Origin: a virus
DNA: 30,870 bases
Virus record (IMG/VR): IMGVR_UViG_3300032235_000624
Coordinates: 1-30,870 of that record
Direction: 5' to 3' (one strand)
Made by a program: the position numbers and the translations under genes. The notes below the pieces were generated by a model. The model saw only the letters and a list, made by a program, of their open reading frames with translations, was not told where the DNA came from and did no database searches. Below, in pieces: positions 8,152 through 28,154 of this stretch (position 1 is the first letter of the stretch; each line of letters opens with the position of its first letter).

Positions 8152-8183
8152 TTTGGTAATTTAATAAAAATTTAGTATCTTTG
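8152..8183 (+). promoter_or_regulatory. Bacteroidota-type promoter before the polA-like gene
   Basis: TTTGG at 8152-8156 (-33 box) and TATCTTTG at 8176-8183 (-7 box, consensus TAnnTTTG) are separated by 20 bases counted from TTTG. The ATG at 8190 lies only six bases after the -7 box, so the transcript is expected to start at or almost at the start codon (leaderless). Confidence 0.8.
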
Positions 8184-22532: not shown

Positions 22533-23288
22533 ATGAAATTAGATGGAAAAGATTATTGTGATATATCCAAACTTTCAGTTAGATTAATAAGTAAGGATGT
22601 AGCTAAAGATATTATTGTAAATAACCATTATAGTGGTATATGGACAAAAGTATCTTATGCAATAGGTTTATTTCATATATCAAATGATGCACACAAATTC
22701 TTCGCCGGAGTAAACGAAAAACTTATTGGAGTAGCTTGCTATGGTGACCCGGTTGGTAGGCATTCGGGCGCATCCATTTCGGAACTATTAGATAGAACGG
22801 AGGTTTTAGAACTTACCCGTCTTTTTGTATTTGATGGATATGGTACTAACATTGAGAGTTGGTTCGTTGGAAAATCATTTGAATGGTTGAGAGAAAACGC
22901 ACCACACATCAAAGCATTGGTATCATATTCAGACCCAAAGGTTGGGCATTTGGGAACGATATATCAAGCAACTAATTGGATATATCAGGGTAATAAAATC
23001 AGACCAAATGATAGTTGGAGTTTTAAGTGGAGTGAGATTGATGAGTGGCATCATAGTAGAACATCCTATGTGAAGTACGGAACGAATGACCCAAAGATAA
23101 TTCAAAAAATGGTAACATCGCCATTTTGGATTAAAAAAGAACCACGTAAGCATAGATACGTTTATATATTGTTAAGTGGAAAAGAAAAAAAGAAATTATT
23201 TAAATCATTAAAATACCCATCTCTACCATATCCAAAGCATAATGCAGAATTTGTGGAAGAGATATATAAATTAGAACCCATAAAATAA
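22533..23288 (+). CDS. Mom-like DNA-modification protein (GNAT-type), copy 1
   Basis: A 251-residue protein of the phage Mu Mom type. Mom has a GNAT-like fold and converts adenine in DNA to a carbamoylmethyl form, protecting against restriction. The recognisable core is NHYSG (31-35), YGDPVG (70-75), VLELTRLFV (91-99), GTNIESWFVGKSFEWLRE (104-121) and ALVSYSDPKVGHLGTIYQA (128-146) followed by TNWIYQG. This matches the NxxSxFIGxS...SYADPxxGHxGxIYQAxN pattern of the family. The C-terminal 90 residues are basic and may bind DNA. A paralogue follows four bases downstream. Exact chemistry is not visible from sequence. Confidence 0.75.
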   Translation: MKLDGKDYCDISKLSVRLISKDVAKDIIVNNHYSGIWTKVSYAIGLFHISNDAHKFFAGVNEKLIGVACYGDPVGRHSGASISELLDRTEVLELTRLFVFDGYGTNIESWFVGKSFEWLRENAPHIKALVSYSDPKVGHLGTIYQATNWIYQGNKIRPNDSWSFKWSEIDEWHHSRTSYVKYGTNDPKIIQKMVTSPFWIKKEPRKHRYVYILLSGKEKKKLFKSLKYPSLPYPKHNAEFVEEIYKLEPIK

Positions 23289-23292
23289 GTTT

Positions 23293-24096
23293 ATGAAAGA
23301 AGAAGGTAAAAATTATTGCGATACCTCAAAAGTATTTATAGCACCAATCAGTAAAGATGTAGCAAAGGATATTATCGTAAAGAAACACTATACACACGCT
23401 TGGACAGCTTGTAGATACGCTTTGGGTATTTTTTATAAAATGGATGAATCTAATGCGCTAGGTGAAGATAATAAATTAATCGGATGTTTAGTTTATGGAT
23501 TCCCCGTTGGAGCAAGAGCAGCAACTTCTATTTCGGATTTACTTACAAAAGATAATGTATTAGAATTGACTCGTTTGTATTGTGATGATGGGTATGGTTC
23601 TAATATCGAATCATATGCAATGGGACAATCATTTAAATGGTTCAGAGAAAATGATTCAGCAATTAAAGCACTTATTTCTTACGCTGATAATGGACAAGAA
23701 CATTTAGGTGGAATTTATCAGGCAACGAATTGGATTTATCAGGGGTTAAATACTGATATCGCTTTAATGCCAAACTACGGAATATCATTATCAAATGACC
23801 CTTACAAATGGATTCATAGTAGGACTGTGTTTACAAAATGGGGTAGTGGTAACTTAGAACATCTTCGTAGAGAAATCGGTAAAGATGGTTATAAAGAGTT
23901 TTGGAGAAGAGAAGAACCACCAAAGCATAGATACTTACAAATTATCACAGCTGATAAGAAGGAAAAGAAAGCAATTATGAAATCCTTCAAACACGAAATC
24001 AGACCATATCCAAAAGATACCCGTGCTTTCAATAAGGATATCCAAAATTGGAAAACAATCGCACCCGAAACGGAAATAGATACCAAATTTTGGTAA
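23293..24096 (+). CDS. Mom-like DNA-modification protein (GNAT-type), copy 2
   Basis: A 267-residue paralogue of the preceding gene with the same order of motifs: KHYTHAW (31-37), YGFPVG (68-73), VLELTRLYCDDGYGSNIES (89-107), and IKALISYADNGQEHLGG (124-140) then IYQATNWIYQG. The N-terminal leader (GKNYCDTSKVF...SKDVAKDIIV) is also shared, so the pair came from a tandem duplication of the whole gene. The copies have diverged well outside the core, most of all after residue 150, where copy 2 carries a longer, different insertion. This could change the substrate or the target sequence. The C-terminus is basic. It ends the transcript before the promoter of the HNH gene. Confidence 0.75.
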   Translation: MKEEGKNYCDTSKVFIAPISKDVAKDIIVKKHYTHAWTACRYALGIFYKMDESNALGEDNKLIGCLVYGFPVGARAATSISDLLTKDNVLELTRLYCDDGYGSNIESYAMGQSFKWFRENDSAIKALISYADNGQEHLGGIYQATNWIYQGLNTDIALMPNYGISLSNDPYKWIHSRTVFTKWGSGNLEHLRREIGKDGYKEFWRREEPPKHRYLQIITADKKEKKAIMKSFKHEIRPYPKDTRAFNKDIQNWKTIAPETEIDTKFW

Positions 24097-24144: not shown

Positions 24145-24176
24145 TTTGGTAATATAGAATAATCTTCGTATATTTG
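24145..24176 (+). promoter_or_regulatory. Bacteroidota-type promoter before the DGQHR-HNH gene
   Basis: TTTGG at 24145-24149 and TATATTTG at 24169-24176, 20 bases apart from TTTG. The -7 box lies in a perfect 7-base inverted repeat, GTATATT (24168-24174) and AATATAC (24178-24184), with a 3-base spacer. Transcription should begin near 24183. Confidence 0.85.
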
Positions 24177-24182
24177 TAATAT

Positions 24183-24279
24183 ACAAACAAAAGGTCGCAT
24201 TCACCTTAATCCGAATGCATTAACAAACAAATCGGTAAAAGTATCACCGAATTAACGATACTACAAAAAAAACAAAATT
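24183..24279 (+). ncRNA. Leader RNA with two tandem H-type pseudoknots
   Basis: The roughly 97-base leader starts with ACAAACAAA at 24183, repeated at 24223 and, with one change, at 24263: a period of exactly 40. Each full unit can form an H-type pseudoknot. Unit 1: AAGGT (24191-24195) with ACCTT (24203-24207), and GCATTC (24197-24202) with GAATGC (24213-24218). Unit 2: TCGGT (24232-24236) with ACCGA (24246-24250), and AGTATC (24240-24245) with GATACT (24257-24262). Both have a 5-pair stem 1, a 6-pair stem 2, loops of 1-3 and 5-6 bases and no base between the stems, so geometry is good. Stem sequences differ while pairing is kept. It may be a translational control element of the HNH gene or a separate small RNA. 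Confidence 0.6.
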
Positions 24280-25803
24280 ATGGCTATTAAAAAAACAATT
24301 AGCGCAAAAGTTCTTTCTGGTGGAACTCTAAACAAACTAAGAGAAATGTCCCCTTACATTTATGTAGATAAGCATCAGTTACAAAGATTGCTTGATAAGT
24401 GGGAAGATACTACATCCGCAAAACATATGAAAGCATGTTTAATTGGACATTCTAACATCTACACAATTGTATTAGTAAGTATTCAGGGTTGTTTAGATTA
24501 TTGTGAATCATTGATATCTCAATATTCCGAAGGTGATGACAGATATGAATCTGTAAAAGAAACCATAGATTATTTACAAAATCTAACAAAGCAGGGTTAT
24601 CGTTATTTGAACATCGATGGTCAGCATAGAGTAGAGTGTTATACCGATTATTTTAATTCAAAATTCGTAATAACCGAATCTGTTATTGATTTAATAGAAA
24701 GTAAGGATGGAACAACTATTCCATTCGAAATGAAAGGTGTATTTTTTAAAGATATGCCTGAAGAAACGCAATCGCAAGTTTTGAATTTACCAATTACAAT
24801 CGTATTGGTTGAAAAGGCAACTTTACAAGATATGGTTGATATTACCATATATACTAATATCGGAGAACCTTGGAATGATAACGAAAGACGTATTATTATA
24901 CCATCGCAATTTAATAGGTTCTTACATTCGTTTATGAATAATAATCCGTTATTAACGGCAATGTTCGATAATACAAAAAACTTATCAGGCGATTATGCAT
25001 TACTTAAAAAGGGAGATGCACTTATTATAGCAGAATGGTTTGGATATTATTACAATGTGTTGGAAGGTAACATTTATAATTGGCCTAAAAACTCTATGTT
25101 AGATAGTATGGCTTCAATCGAAGGTTTACCAAAACATAGTAAGAAACGATTAAACGACACAAAATCTCTAATATCCAAAACAATAGAATTGGCTAATTCT
25201 GCCGGTGAAATTAAATTTGAAAGAACATTTTTGGATAATTTATTCATACTGATGACGATACTAAATACACCATCGCATTCAATGAATAATAAAGGTAAAG
25301 AAATCAAAATCAACAATTATAAAAAATTCATTGATTGGTTTGCAAAAACTGAAGCAACTTTAAGAAAGGAAGATGAATTTCTTATAGACCCAGCAACAGG
25401 CAAAGATTATGTTCATCCTATTACGGGTAAAAAATCAACTAACGCAGAATCTTTTAAAAGAAAATGTGGTGCTAAGAAAACAGATGATATTCAAATTCGT
25501 TCTACTATGATGATGGAAAAGTTTTATAAAAGTTATGATAAACTTTTTGCAAATGGAATCATTACTTTAATAGATACTACAAATTATACTAAGAAGCAAA
25601 AGTTAGAAGCTGCTATTGAAAATGATTGGATTGATGCGGATGGTAATGAATTTACATTTGAAGAATTGATGGGTTCTAATTCTATTATGGAAGGTGACCA
25701 CATTGATGCTAGAGCAAATGGTAATGAAACTACAAAAGATAACTTAGTTCTTAGAAATAAAAAAGCAAATATTAGAAAATCAAATAAAGCAATTTTAAAA
25801 TAA
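24280..25803 (+). CDS. DGQHR-domain protein with C-terminal HNH nuclease domain
   Basis: A 507-residue protein. The N-terminal part has YRYLNIDGQHRVEC with D113-R117, the DGQHR/DGQQR signature shared by DndB-like, ParB-like and DUF262 proteins, and an NLPITIVLV strand with IYTNIGEPWNDNERR typical of such domains. The C-terminus (about 447-507) has GDHIDARANG with D473-H474, N488 in KDNLVL and N497 in KANIRK, an HNH (HNN-type) metal-dependent nuclease motif. The architecture resembles GmrSD-like type IV restriction enzymes (DUF262 plus HNH), which cut modified DNA, but the zinc cysteines are not seen. It is preceded by its own promoter and a tandem-pseudoknot leader, and follows the Mom-like pair. 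The glycosyltransferase begins one base after its stop. Confidence 0.7.
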   Translation: MAIKKTISAKVLSGGTLNKLREMSPYIYVDKHQLQRLLDKWEDTTSAKHMKACLIGHSNIYTIVLVSIQGCLDYCESLISQYSEGDDRYESVKETIDYLQNLTKQGYRYLNIDGQHRVECYTDYFNSKFVITESVIDLIESKDGTTIPFEMKGVFFKDMPEETQSQVLNLPITIVLVEKATLQDMVDITIYTNIGEPWNDNERRIIIPSQFNRFLHSFMNNNPLLTAMFDNTKNLSGDYALLKKGDALIIAEWFGYYYNVLEGNIYNWPKNSMLDSMASIEGLPKHSKKRLNDTKSLISKTIELANSAGEIKFERTFLDNLFILMTILNTPSHSMNNKGKEIKINNYKKFIDWFAKTEATLRKEDEFLIDPATGKDYVHPITGKKSTNAESFKRKCGAKKTDDIQIRSTMMMEKFYKSYDKLFANGIITLIDTTNYTKKQKLEAAIENDWIDADGNEFTFEELMGSNSIMEGDHIDARANGNETTKDNLVLRNKKANIRKSNKAILK

Positions 25804-25804
25804 T

Positions 25805-26908
25805 ATGAATAAATTTTGGGATTCAGAGGTAGGAAGCTTCGATAAAAAAGTTTTAGTAGTACCAAATTATACGCATTTCGGAGAAGGTAAAAATATAAAC
25901 GCAGATTCGTTTGTATTGGTAATGAAATCTTTTTTAGATAATGCTGGTTATGATAATTTACAATTTATAATCCCATATCCGAATGGTAGTATGCCAACGG
26001 ATTTTATGAAATATAAAAACGTTAAGCTCATTAATATGGGGAGTGTATCTACATTCCCCCCTTTAATGAGAATTCAATTTCCTGATTCGGCATTTAAGAA
26101 AATATTTTCAGAAGAAGGTATTGATATTATTTGGTCACATTTGCCGGAGTGGACAAATCAATTACTAATTGTTAGAAGATACAACACAGTAACTCAACCC
26201 GTTTTGGGATATTGCCATTGGTGGGAGATTCCCGAAAATGGTGCATATAATCACAATTCATTTTGGAATAATGTGCAAGGTATGTTGAAGATGAAAGTAT
26301 GTGGAGTTAACTCACAATGGGTTAAGAATCTAATTATAAAAAGAGCATCTGAATTCTTAAATCAACAAACGATAGATAAGTTAGAACAAATAATTCAGCC
26401 TTGGTATTTAGGATGTGATGAATTTGTAGAAGGAAATGTAAGACCAAAAACAATTCTATTTAATCATAGAGCAGATGGTTATACCGGCGCTGAATGGTTC
26501 TTCGAAGAAATGGATAAGTTATGGGAGCAAAGACAAGATTTCAAAGTACTAACTTCAATAGCAAGTGTAGTAAAACCATATACCGAATCTATAAGACATC
26601 CTAATAGAGAACACTATTTGAATAATGTAGGTAGCGCTGATATTGGAGTTGGATGTTTTACAAAGTATTCAGCGTGGAGTATGAGTACAACGGATGGATT
26701 GAGTAGAGGCGTTCCATATATCTTACCAAAAGAATTGTGTTATGAAGAAATGGTTGGTGAAGATTACCCACTTTTGTACAAAGGTAAAAAGGAATTCGTA
26801 AAAGTAATTACGGATTATTTGAATGGTAAAATAGAAAGACCAAACACAAAGCCAATTGCTGAAAAGTTGTATTGGAAAAATCAGCTAAAGAATTGGAAAA
26901 TTGATTAA
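25805..26908 (+). CDS. GT-B-type glycosyltransferase-like protein
   Basis: A 367-residue protein with a two-domain layout. The N-terminal domain begins with KVLVVPNYTHFGEG (15-28) and has aromatic strands (LGYCHWWEIPENG, 134-146). The C-terminal Rossmann-like domain starts with TILFNHRADGYTGAE (216-230) and has SADIGVGCF (277-285) and TTDGLSRGVPYILP (295-308), the region that in GT4-type enzymes binds the nucleotide sugar (usually E-x7-E; here no clear Glu pair). It may glycosylate DNA, as T4 glucosyltransferases do, or a surface or protein target. Its place next to DNA-modification genes favours a DNA role, but that is inference. It starts one base after the HNH gene stop. Confidence 0.6.
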   Translation: MNKFWDSEVGSFDKKVLVVPNYTHFGEGKNINADSFVLVMKSFLDNAGYDNLQFIIPYPNGSMPTDFMKYKNVKLINMGSVSTFPPLMRIQFPDSAFKKIFSEEGIDIIWSHLPEWTNQLLIVRRYNTVTQPVLGYCHWWEIPENGAYNHNSFWNNVQGMLKMKVCGVNSQWVKNLIIKRASEFLNQQTIDKLEQIIQPWYLGCDEFVEGNVRPKTILFNHRADGYTGAEWFFEEMDKLWEQRQDFKVLTSIASVVKPYTESIRHPNREHYLNNVGSADIGVGCFTKYSAWSMSTTDGLSRGVPYILPKELCYEEMVGEDYPLLYKGKKEFVKVITDYLNGKIERPNTKPIAEKLYWKNQLKNWKID

Positions 26909-26927: not shown

Positions 26928-28154
26928 ATGAAATTTTGGAATACAGGAGAAGAAACAAACACAACCACATTTGACTACGATGTGATGAAGAAGAAGTTCA
27001 TTGAAAATTTGGACTATCTTAAAGAAATGTCAGTAGAAGAACAAACCCTATATAAGAAGTGGATTGAGTGGAATGCTGATAGAGTTTCAAATATGAAACG
27101 TTTACCCGTATTACAATCATATTACGATTCTTTATGGAAACCTACCAATCTTATGGATAAAGATTTAACTATTTCTGAAATAGAAAAATTAGAACCATAT
27201 GTAGAAATAGTAGAAGATGATGCGAAAGAATCCACTCGTTGGACTGAAATTCGTAAACTAATCCATACGATGGAGTTTTCTGCTAACCCTGGTAGAAACG
27301 TAAAGATATACGTTAAAGATAGAACAAGCGGAAAGATATTAGGACAAATTTGTTTAGGGTCGGATATCACTTCATTAGGAGTTAGAGATGAATTCATTGG
27401 TTGGACTAAAGAAGATAAATTCGAAAAGGGTAAATTGAATTGTACATCTATTGCTACAACTATCGTATCGACTCAACCATTTGGATATAACTTCTTAGGA
27501 GGTAAGTTAATCGCAGCATTAGCAACCGCTCCTGAAATTAGAGCATATTGGAAAACTAAATATGATAATCCATTAGTCGGAGTAGGTACAACATCTTTAT
27601 ACGGAATTCATTCTCAATACAATGGTATTCCGCATTTCAAAACATTAGGAGAATCTAAAGGTAAAATTTCTACAAAGCCAGATGATTCGGTATATGACCC
27701 GTGGCATCAATGGTTAAAAGAAAATCGTTCAGAATGGTATAAGAAAAACATTATGGATGAGAGAGAACGCAATGGTGCTAATATGGGTTACGAAAAGAAC
27801 GGACCTGTAAGTGGAATTAAACAAAAGATTATTCAGGCAATTTTCAAAGAATTGGGAATCAAAGGAAACGCTTATGACCACGGATTCCAAAGAGGTGTAT
27901 ATTTTTCACAAATGTATCAGAATGGTAATGATTTTCTTTGTTCTAAAATAGAAGAAAAGGATTTGATATTAAATGAGAAGTTTGCTAAAGGAAACGAATA
28001 TACTACAAAATGGTGGAAAGATAAAGCCATCAAAAGATATACAAAATTACACGAAGAGGGTAGAATTAAACCCGAAGTATTGTTCTATGTAGATGCAATT
28101 GGGATGACGTGGGAACAAATGAAAGAACATTATTTAAAAGAAGTAGGAAGATAG
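26928..28154 (+). CDS. DUF4338/DruA-like protein
   Basis: A 408-residue protein. The central part reads GKILGQICLGSD (135-146), GVRDEFIGWT (151-160), FGYNFLGGKLIAALA (185-199) and a YxNPLVGVGTTSLY stretch (212-225), ending in HFKTLGESKG (236-245). This agrees with the DUF4338 pattern of DruA-type proteins (G...RDxFIGW..., ...LA..L..., Y..R..L..T......Y....W..LGET.G), known from the Druantia defence system and from other phages. The C-terminal 150 residues are basic and aromatic. The mechanism of DruA is not established, to my knowledge. It has its own promoter and lies between the glycosyltransferase and the polymerase gene, which follows after one base. Family call is from memory of motifs. 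Confidence 0.5.
   Translation: MKFWNTGEETNTTTFDYDVMKKKFIENLDYLKEMSVEEQTLYKKWIEWNADRVSNMKRLPVLQSYYDSLWKPTNLMDKDLTISEIEKLEPYVEIVEDDAKESTRWTEIRKLIHTMEFSANPGRNVKIYVKDRTSGKILGQICLGSDITSLGVRDEFIGWTKEDKFEKGKLNCTSIATTIVSTQPFGYNFLGGKLIAALATAPEIRAYWKTKYDNPLVGVGTTSLYGIHSQYNGIPHFKTLGESKGKISTKPDDSVYDPWHQWLKENRSEWYKKNIMDERERNGANMGYEKNGPVSGIKQKIIQAIFKELGIKGNAYDHGFQRGVYFSQMYQNGNDFLCSKIEEKDLILNEKFAKGNEYTTKWWKDKAIKRYTKLHEEGRIKPEVLFYVDAIGMTWEQMKEHYLKEVGR

Follow-up and report, generated by a model that had tools for sequence, protein, structure and literature searches.

A phage-encoded DGQHR-HNH protein beside tandem Mom genes: a candidate nuclease of an exchangeable slot

DUF262-HNH enzymes that sense modification are known from hosts, which use them as weapons against phages; in these enzymes the DUF262 domain senses the mark and NTP hydrolysis unleashes the HNH domain. 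In SspE, phosphorothioates on self DNA license the enzyme, which goes on to cut DNA without the mark (PMC13251355; PMC9646914), and GmrSD cuts glucosylated foreign DNA (PMC4619093). A precedent for Mom coupled to a nuclease is found in the Mom-REase fusions of jumbo phages (PMC7824862). The protein described here is encoded by a virus record, IMGVR_UViG_3300032235_000624, of which positions 1 to 30,870 were analysed; this whole stretch of 30,870 nucleotides is referred to as the window.

SspE is, by analogy, probably the closest mechanistic counterpart of the window protein, although its target, unmarked DNA, is the opposite of that of a modification-dependent enzyme. At the level of fold and architecture, both carry an N-terminal DUF262/ParB-Srx domain with DGQ[Q/H]R and a C-terminal HNH domain with D/H-N-N in one chain; both genes lie beside those of DNA-marking enzymes, and SspE is among the best structural matches of the window protein. 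However, no sequence similarity between the two is detectable, and SspE is bacterial and depends on the phosphorothioate from SspABCD, whereas the window protein is phage-encoded, exchanged between phages and associated with a predicted Mom-type base acylation. The type IV enzymes GmrSD and BrxU share with it the DUF262 fold, the QR pair, a DGQQR-like motif and the D-H-N-N nuclease motif, but hosts use them to defend against modified phage DNA, whereas the window enzyme is phage-owned and fails both PF03235 and DUF1524. The DndB/DGQHR proteins (TIGR03187) are alike in their DGQHR signature, ParB/Srx fold and tie to DNA-marking genes, but DndB lacks an HNH domain and the window protein has no NCBIfam match. 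In the jumbo-phage fusions, as here, a phage Mom is paired with a nuclease whose proposed targets are host or rival DNA (PMC7824862), but there a REase-fold domain is fused to Mom, whereas the window nuclease is a separate ParB/DUF262-type protein located in a hypervariable slot adjoining two Mom genes and equipped with a promoter of its own and a pseudoknot leader.

Domain architecture and family link

The nuclease gene (24280..25803, on the + strand like all window features given coordinates below) runs from ATG to stop and encodes 507 aa. A sequence-only reading had proposed that its product joins a DGQHR signature to a C-terminal HNN-type motif, in the likeness of a DUF262-DUF1524 (GmrSD-type) enzyme. 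The joining of the two motifs was borne out by the translation and the homologue alignment. The DGQHR motif, a predicted NTP-binding signature, occupies aa 113-117 (24616..24630); both it, as I112-DGQHR117, and the Q35-R36 pair (24382-24387) are conserved in 11/11 aligned homologues of 40-96% identity, and a wider set (n=16) has S for H116 in one, possibly incomplete, row. At the other end, D473, H474, N488 and N497, together with K500, are conserved in all homologues long enough to include the C-terminal motif. The second Q of the GmrSD (I/V)DGQQR motif is H in the window protein, as in DGQHR domains, and the FxxxN position reads T189-IYT-N193, followed by a conserved G-x-P-W-N-x-x-E-x-R. The gene is under purifying selection, with a dN/dS of 0.05 for close pairs and 0.18-0.28 for distant pairs, which argues that the protein is kept functional. 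In one relative (L067, 984-2503; also in L103) a frame change divides the gene into two ORFs, through decay, sequencing error or frameshifting.

A structure model built on 11 homologues is of medium confidence over its full length (pLDDT 68.8), with a well-predicted N-terminal domain of the DUF262/ParB-Srx type (~aa 7-198; 24298..24873). The structural matches of this domain include BrxU (Z 6.6 over 285 residues, rmsd 14.8), SspE (Z 6.2-6.3; at Z 6.3, 152 residues with rmsd 4.2), ParB-CDP (Z 5.1), DndI (Z 4.6), Srx-ATP (Z 4.2) and Noc, and SspE is also its best Foldseek match (E 0.02). The Z scores are middling (<8), and the list is coherent in that the top matches belong to the ParB/Srx superfamily, plus a few helical coincidences. 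These middling scores support a predicted ParB/Srx (DUF262) fold.

The C-terminal domain (25552..25800) was modelled as the last 83 residues together with the HNH ends of two slot families, across which D473, H474, N488, N497 and K500 (25696-25785) are invariant. Absence of a beta-beta-alpha (bba)-metal fold had been set beforehand as refuting a nuclease assignment; the predicted model has this arrangement, a strand-loop-strand-helix in which the first strand ends at H474, and its structural matches are HNH nucleases only (Cas9 HNH, Gme HNH, Cap5 and similar, with Foldseek probabilities of up to 0.99). The Pfam HNH profile PF01844 matches aa 469-502 weakly, below its cut-off (E 0.0037).

Profile searches gave a different picture for the GmrSD likeness, which stands for the DUF262-like plus HNH architecture but not for Pfam membership. 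No match to GmrSD_N/DUF262 (PF03235) was found in Pfam at E up to 1, nor to the DGQHR (TIGR03187) or DndB models in NCBIfam at the same limit; the protein likewise lacks a Pfam profile match to DUF1524 (PF07510) and a PADLOC match. Sequence searches of the PDB with the protein and with its family profile returned chance matches only, and matches to CUB, MiaB and Vps28 were dismissed as weak and due to chance. The rarity claimed for such a phage protein was confirmed, as no homologue was present in 50,697 isolate phage records; none was found among contigs of sequenced bacterial and archaeal species either.

The link to GmrSD-type enzymes is provided by relatives in the same genomic slot. Two of these slot proteins, in L019 (33.2 bits) and L064 (37.9 bits), reach the 33.2-bit GmrSD_N cut-off and also pass the Pfam HNH cut-off. 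When their family was compared with the window family, profile alignment gave a probability of 96.9 (E 1.8e-10, 369 columns) and ran from DG[QG][HQ]R to the HNH motif; comparison in halves gave 93.8% for the HNH parts and 65% for the N-terminal parts, the latter match lying around the DGQ motif. As a control, neither family found a match above 5% probability among the other eight slot clusters. This profile link relates the window protein to GmrSD-type enzymes although it fails PF03235: as judged from sequence profiles, it is a diverged DUF262-type plus HNH protein outside GmrSD as Pfam draws it.

Genomic setting and leader of the nuclease gene

The window is a fragment of a T4-like phage in which genes for the tape measure, a gp25-like baseplate wedge, UvsX, SSB, DnaB, Nrd, PhoH and PolB were recognised. 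Its host is likely a Bacteroidota bacterium, because the promoters are of the Bacteroidota type and the best Mom relative among isolates is found in a Polaribacter phage; we infer this host rather than assign it, as the nearest PolB (49%) comes from a phage listed under Microcystis.

The gene order around the nuclease is PhoH, Mom1, Mom2, nuclease, glycosyltransferase, DruA, PolB. The DNA-modification genes that the sequence-only reading had surmised for this phage are thus present as gene content, with two Mom genes directly upstream of the nuclease. Mom-family DNA acyltransferase 1 (22533..23288; phrog_1384) matches Pfam Mom PF25680 at E 2.9e-43 (profile positions 2-202 of 202), and Mom-family DNA acyltransferase 2 (23293..24096), 46% identical to it, matches at E 5.4e-42 (3-202 of 202). 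Judging from these families, the phage DNA probably carries bulky adenine marks. The tandem duplicates (22533-24096) stay side by side in nearly all relatives, and extra Mom-like genes adjoin DnaB or lie downstream of DruA in L042 (4729), L052 (2662), L056 (5307) and L065 (14543). In the unrelated Microbacterium phage Appa (L224, 1978-3130), a ParB-like gene overlaps a Mom-like gene.

Downstream, a gene for a GT-B type glycosyltransferase (25805..26908) begins 1 base past the nuclease stop codon. The window protein has no Pfam match on its own, and its assignment rests on the members of its family A9, 10/12 of which match Glycos_transf_1 (best E 7e-5), with a best E of 3.5e-6 for Glyco_transf_4. 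It is followed by a DruA/DUF4338 protein (26928..28154; Pfam DruA E 4.1e-19, PADLOC DruA E 4.4e-21), a GNAT-type enzyme in line with the published description of DUF4338 (PMC10853773). Mom, glycosyltransferase, DruA and PolB are thus the neighbours of the nuclease, and no Ssp gene was recognised in this fragment of an incomplete genome.

The nuclease gene has its own Bacteroidota-type promoter, identified by sequence match as TTTG-N20-TATATTTG (24145..24176). Five promoters of the form TTTG-N19-21-TAnnTTTG occur in the window, against 1.32 expected; they lie at 8152, 12093, 13161, 24145 and 30718, all on the + strand and all intergenic, and all begin TTTGG(A/T)A. Similar promoters precede the slot genes of sister phages.

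The leader between promoter and ATG had been described as structured, a description that held up: it is more stable than its shuffles (MFE z -2.5) and contains two tandem H-type pseudoknots with covarying pairs. Pseudoknot 1 (24191..24218), AAGGT-c-GCATTC-ACCTT-aatcc-GAATGC, shows two-sided changes in 5/11 pairs among 4 distinct sequences, and pseudoknot 2 (24232..24262), TCGGT-aaa-AGTATC-ACCGA-attaac-GATACT, in 3/11 pairs among 6 distinct sequences; these covariation counts are small, and the leader pieces in the alignment were delimited by hand around the pseudoknots. All cells were paired in both, against 83% (pseudoknot 1) and 91% (pseudoknot 2) in shuffles. They are the sole intergenic pseudoknots of at least 11 perfect pairs on the window + strand. 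Pseudoknot 2 is found in all full-leader homologues of the nuclease class except L095/L094, with G-U for one G-C, and L165, whose leader has neither pseudoknot. As the tandem element is absent from the leaders of the other slot classes, it belongs to the DGQHR-HNH cassette. Rfam returned nothing at the gathering threshold and only a sub-threshold RefA9 match in the leader; the tandem pseudoknots (24191-24262) are a possible new cis-regulatory RNA family, and a natural guess is that the leader would control translation of the nuclease.

The exchangeable slot

Loci were compared around 80 relatives of Mom2 and 80 with a more distant Mom2, together with loci from nuclease queries. In other phages the order Mom1, Mom2, DruA, nuclease, glycosyltransferase, PolB is found, and the content of the nuclease slot varies. 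It may hold the DGQHR-HNH protein of the window, the GmrSD_N plus HNH family, a ParB plus PD-(D/E)xK-like family with a profile that picks up ParB, Noc and Spo0J, a GIY-YIG-like plus ParB-like class (GIY-YIG weak, at E 0.016-0.035 in 1/6 members; ParB-like motif by eye), unassigned proteins of 490-680 aa, or sometimes small homing-type genes, or it may be empty. Slot proteins of 580-680 aa in L045, L062, L073, L086 and L020 show N..NPW or NVEHR motifs and GH...N...N-like C-termini, and may be further ParB/DUF262-HNH-like families. Slot clusters c1, c2 and c4 are not claimed as DUF262/HNH proteins, their likeness being by eye only.

Among 75 distinct Mom2 alleles with a closed interval, 39 are accompanied by a large slot class (seven classes), 32 have an empty slot and 4 have another ORF. 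Many of those with an empty slot keep Mom1, Mom2 and DruA, which argues that the marks are not there solely for the nuclease. At least 30 changes in what the slot holds are needed on a PolB tree of 71 phages, and unrelated slot enzymes occur despite near-identical PolB (L161 vs L162; L035 vs L045). Comparison of L024, with an empty slot, to the occupied L022 shows that the inserted unit consists of promoter, leader and ORF, placed between the DruA stop and the glycosyltransferase start. Against L016, the window has ~90% DNA identity in both flanks and 61% protein identity in the nuclease; against L003, the nuclease is 92% identical, and glycosyltransferase, PolB, Mom2 and NrdA are 54-83% identical (PolB 59%). 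A very recent transfer of the nuclease between phages of the window and L003 types was considered and toned down, as its dS of 0.94 is slightly below that of the flanks.

Linkage to the marking genes was followed in 57 slot-nuclease clusters: Mom or DruA lies within three genes upstream in 42/49 with a visible upstream region, and a glycosyltransferase lies directly downstream in 45 of the 53 with a visible downstream region. Loci reached from the nuclease queries, which were not selected by Mom, usually have a GNAT gene (Mom or DruA) before the nuclease and a glycosyltransferase directly after it. The same linkage is found at other genomic places (L104, L107, L181, L202, L204, L205), with the order DruA end, nuclease, glycosyltransferase retained in L104 and L107, and in other orders in L183 and L184. 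Co-occurrence of nuclease and glycosyltransferase within the PolB-linked set was discarded as a separate line of evidence, because glycosyltransferase presence changes only once on the tree; adjacency at other genomic places is therefore the evidence retained for their link.

Proposed role of the nuclease

We propose, at an even chance of being right, that the phage owns a modification/restriction module sparing its own marked DNA, of which the window protein is the exchangeable restriction half. The two Mom-type acyltransferases, with the DruA-type GNAT enzyme and the glycosyltransferase, would mark adenines or further decorate the phage DNA, as their families indicate. The DGQHR domain, judging from its fold, would sense the mark on DNA and couple sensing to NTP hydrolysis, and the HNH domain would then cut or nick host or rival-phage DNA. 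The phage's own marked DNA would be spared, either by the mark blocking cutting or by an SspE-like licensing of the enzyme in trans, and the tandem-pseudoknot leader would probably delay or tune translation until marking has taken place. We favour such a sparing enzyme because one that attacked the phage's own mark would destroy the phage that makes it. The modification-dependent enzyme first proposed is one of two readings, and fits no better than use of the mark in the SspE or R-M manner. A fuller version, in which Mom, DruA and the glycosyltransferase write the mark of an SspE-like self/non-self system based on base acylation, interchangeable ParB/DUF262-nuclease cassettes read it and destroy unmarked host or rival DNA, and the pseudoknots time synthesis of the nuclease, is offered tentatively, as something we would sooner doubt than accept.

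The foremost alternative is a GmrSD-like, strictly modification-dependent enzyme that cuts the bulky-modified DNA of rival phages with different marks. The DUF262-like plus HNH architecture is that of GmrSD and BrxU, both cutters of glucosylated-hmC DNA, and the fast turnover of nucleases in the slot is consistent with an arms race among phages with different marks; however, the phage itself appears momylated, so the target mark would have to differ from its own, and the Pfam GmrSD_N and DUF1524 profiles both fail. We regard this alternative as unlikely.

Small homing-type GIY-YIG-like and HNH-like proteins are encoded in the slot of L041 (10806), L059 (1615) and L089 (2004). These genes count against the restriction-half reading and agree with a selfish or homing-type endonuclease in an insertion hotspot between the DNA-metabolism genes of T4-like phages, as does the occurrence of similar nuclease alleles in distant phages; the gene-plus-promoter cassette cleanly present in L022 and absent in L024 between the same two genes is compatible with this explanation without being specific to it. 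Such an origin is nevertheless quite improbable in view of the strong and continuous purifying selection (dN/dS 0.05 at dS 0.94), the class-specific covarying leader and the lasting linkage to GNAT and glycosyltransferase genes at other genomic places. To our knowledge, a DUF262/ParB domain is also not usual in homing enzymes.

A DndB-like ParB/Srx helper or regulator of modification, for instance an NTPase that limits or guides marking and whose HNH domain processes or resolves phage DNA, has some precedent in the regulatory action of DGQHR proteins such as DndB (PMC10853773) and in the overlapping genes of phage Appa, but is the least probable explanation, given that unrelated nucleases (HNH, PD-(D/E)xK-like, GIY-YIG-like) interchange beside ParB/DUF262-type domains and that many Mom-bearing relatives have no such gene.

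The kinds of parts brought together in the proposed restriction half are known. As far as shown by the databases and literature searched, what is new is a phage-owned DUF262-type HNH enzyme beside tandem Mom genes, a hypervariable slot of unrelated mark-sensor-like nucleases, and a covarying tandem-pseudoknot leader, the last of which may be a new element controlling a dangerous nuclease. It seems that DUF262-HNH enzymes belong to this phage family, lie next to its DNA-marking genes and are exchanged at a single fixed site. If this is true, hypermodified phages would have one way to attack unmarked DNA, a single locus would constitute a ready collection of new mark-sensing nucleases, and it would become testable whether the hypermodification of phage DNA serves attack as well as defence.
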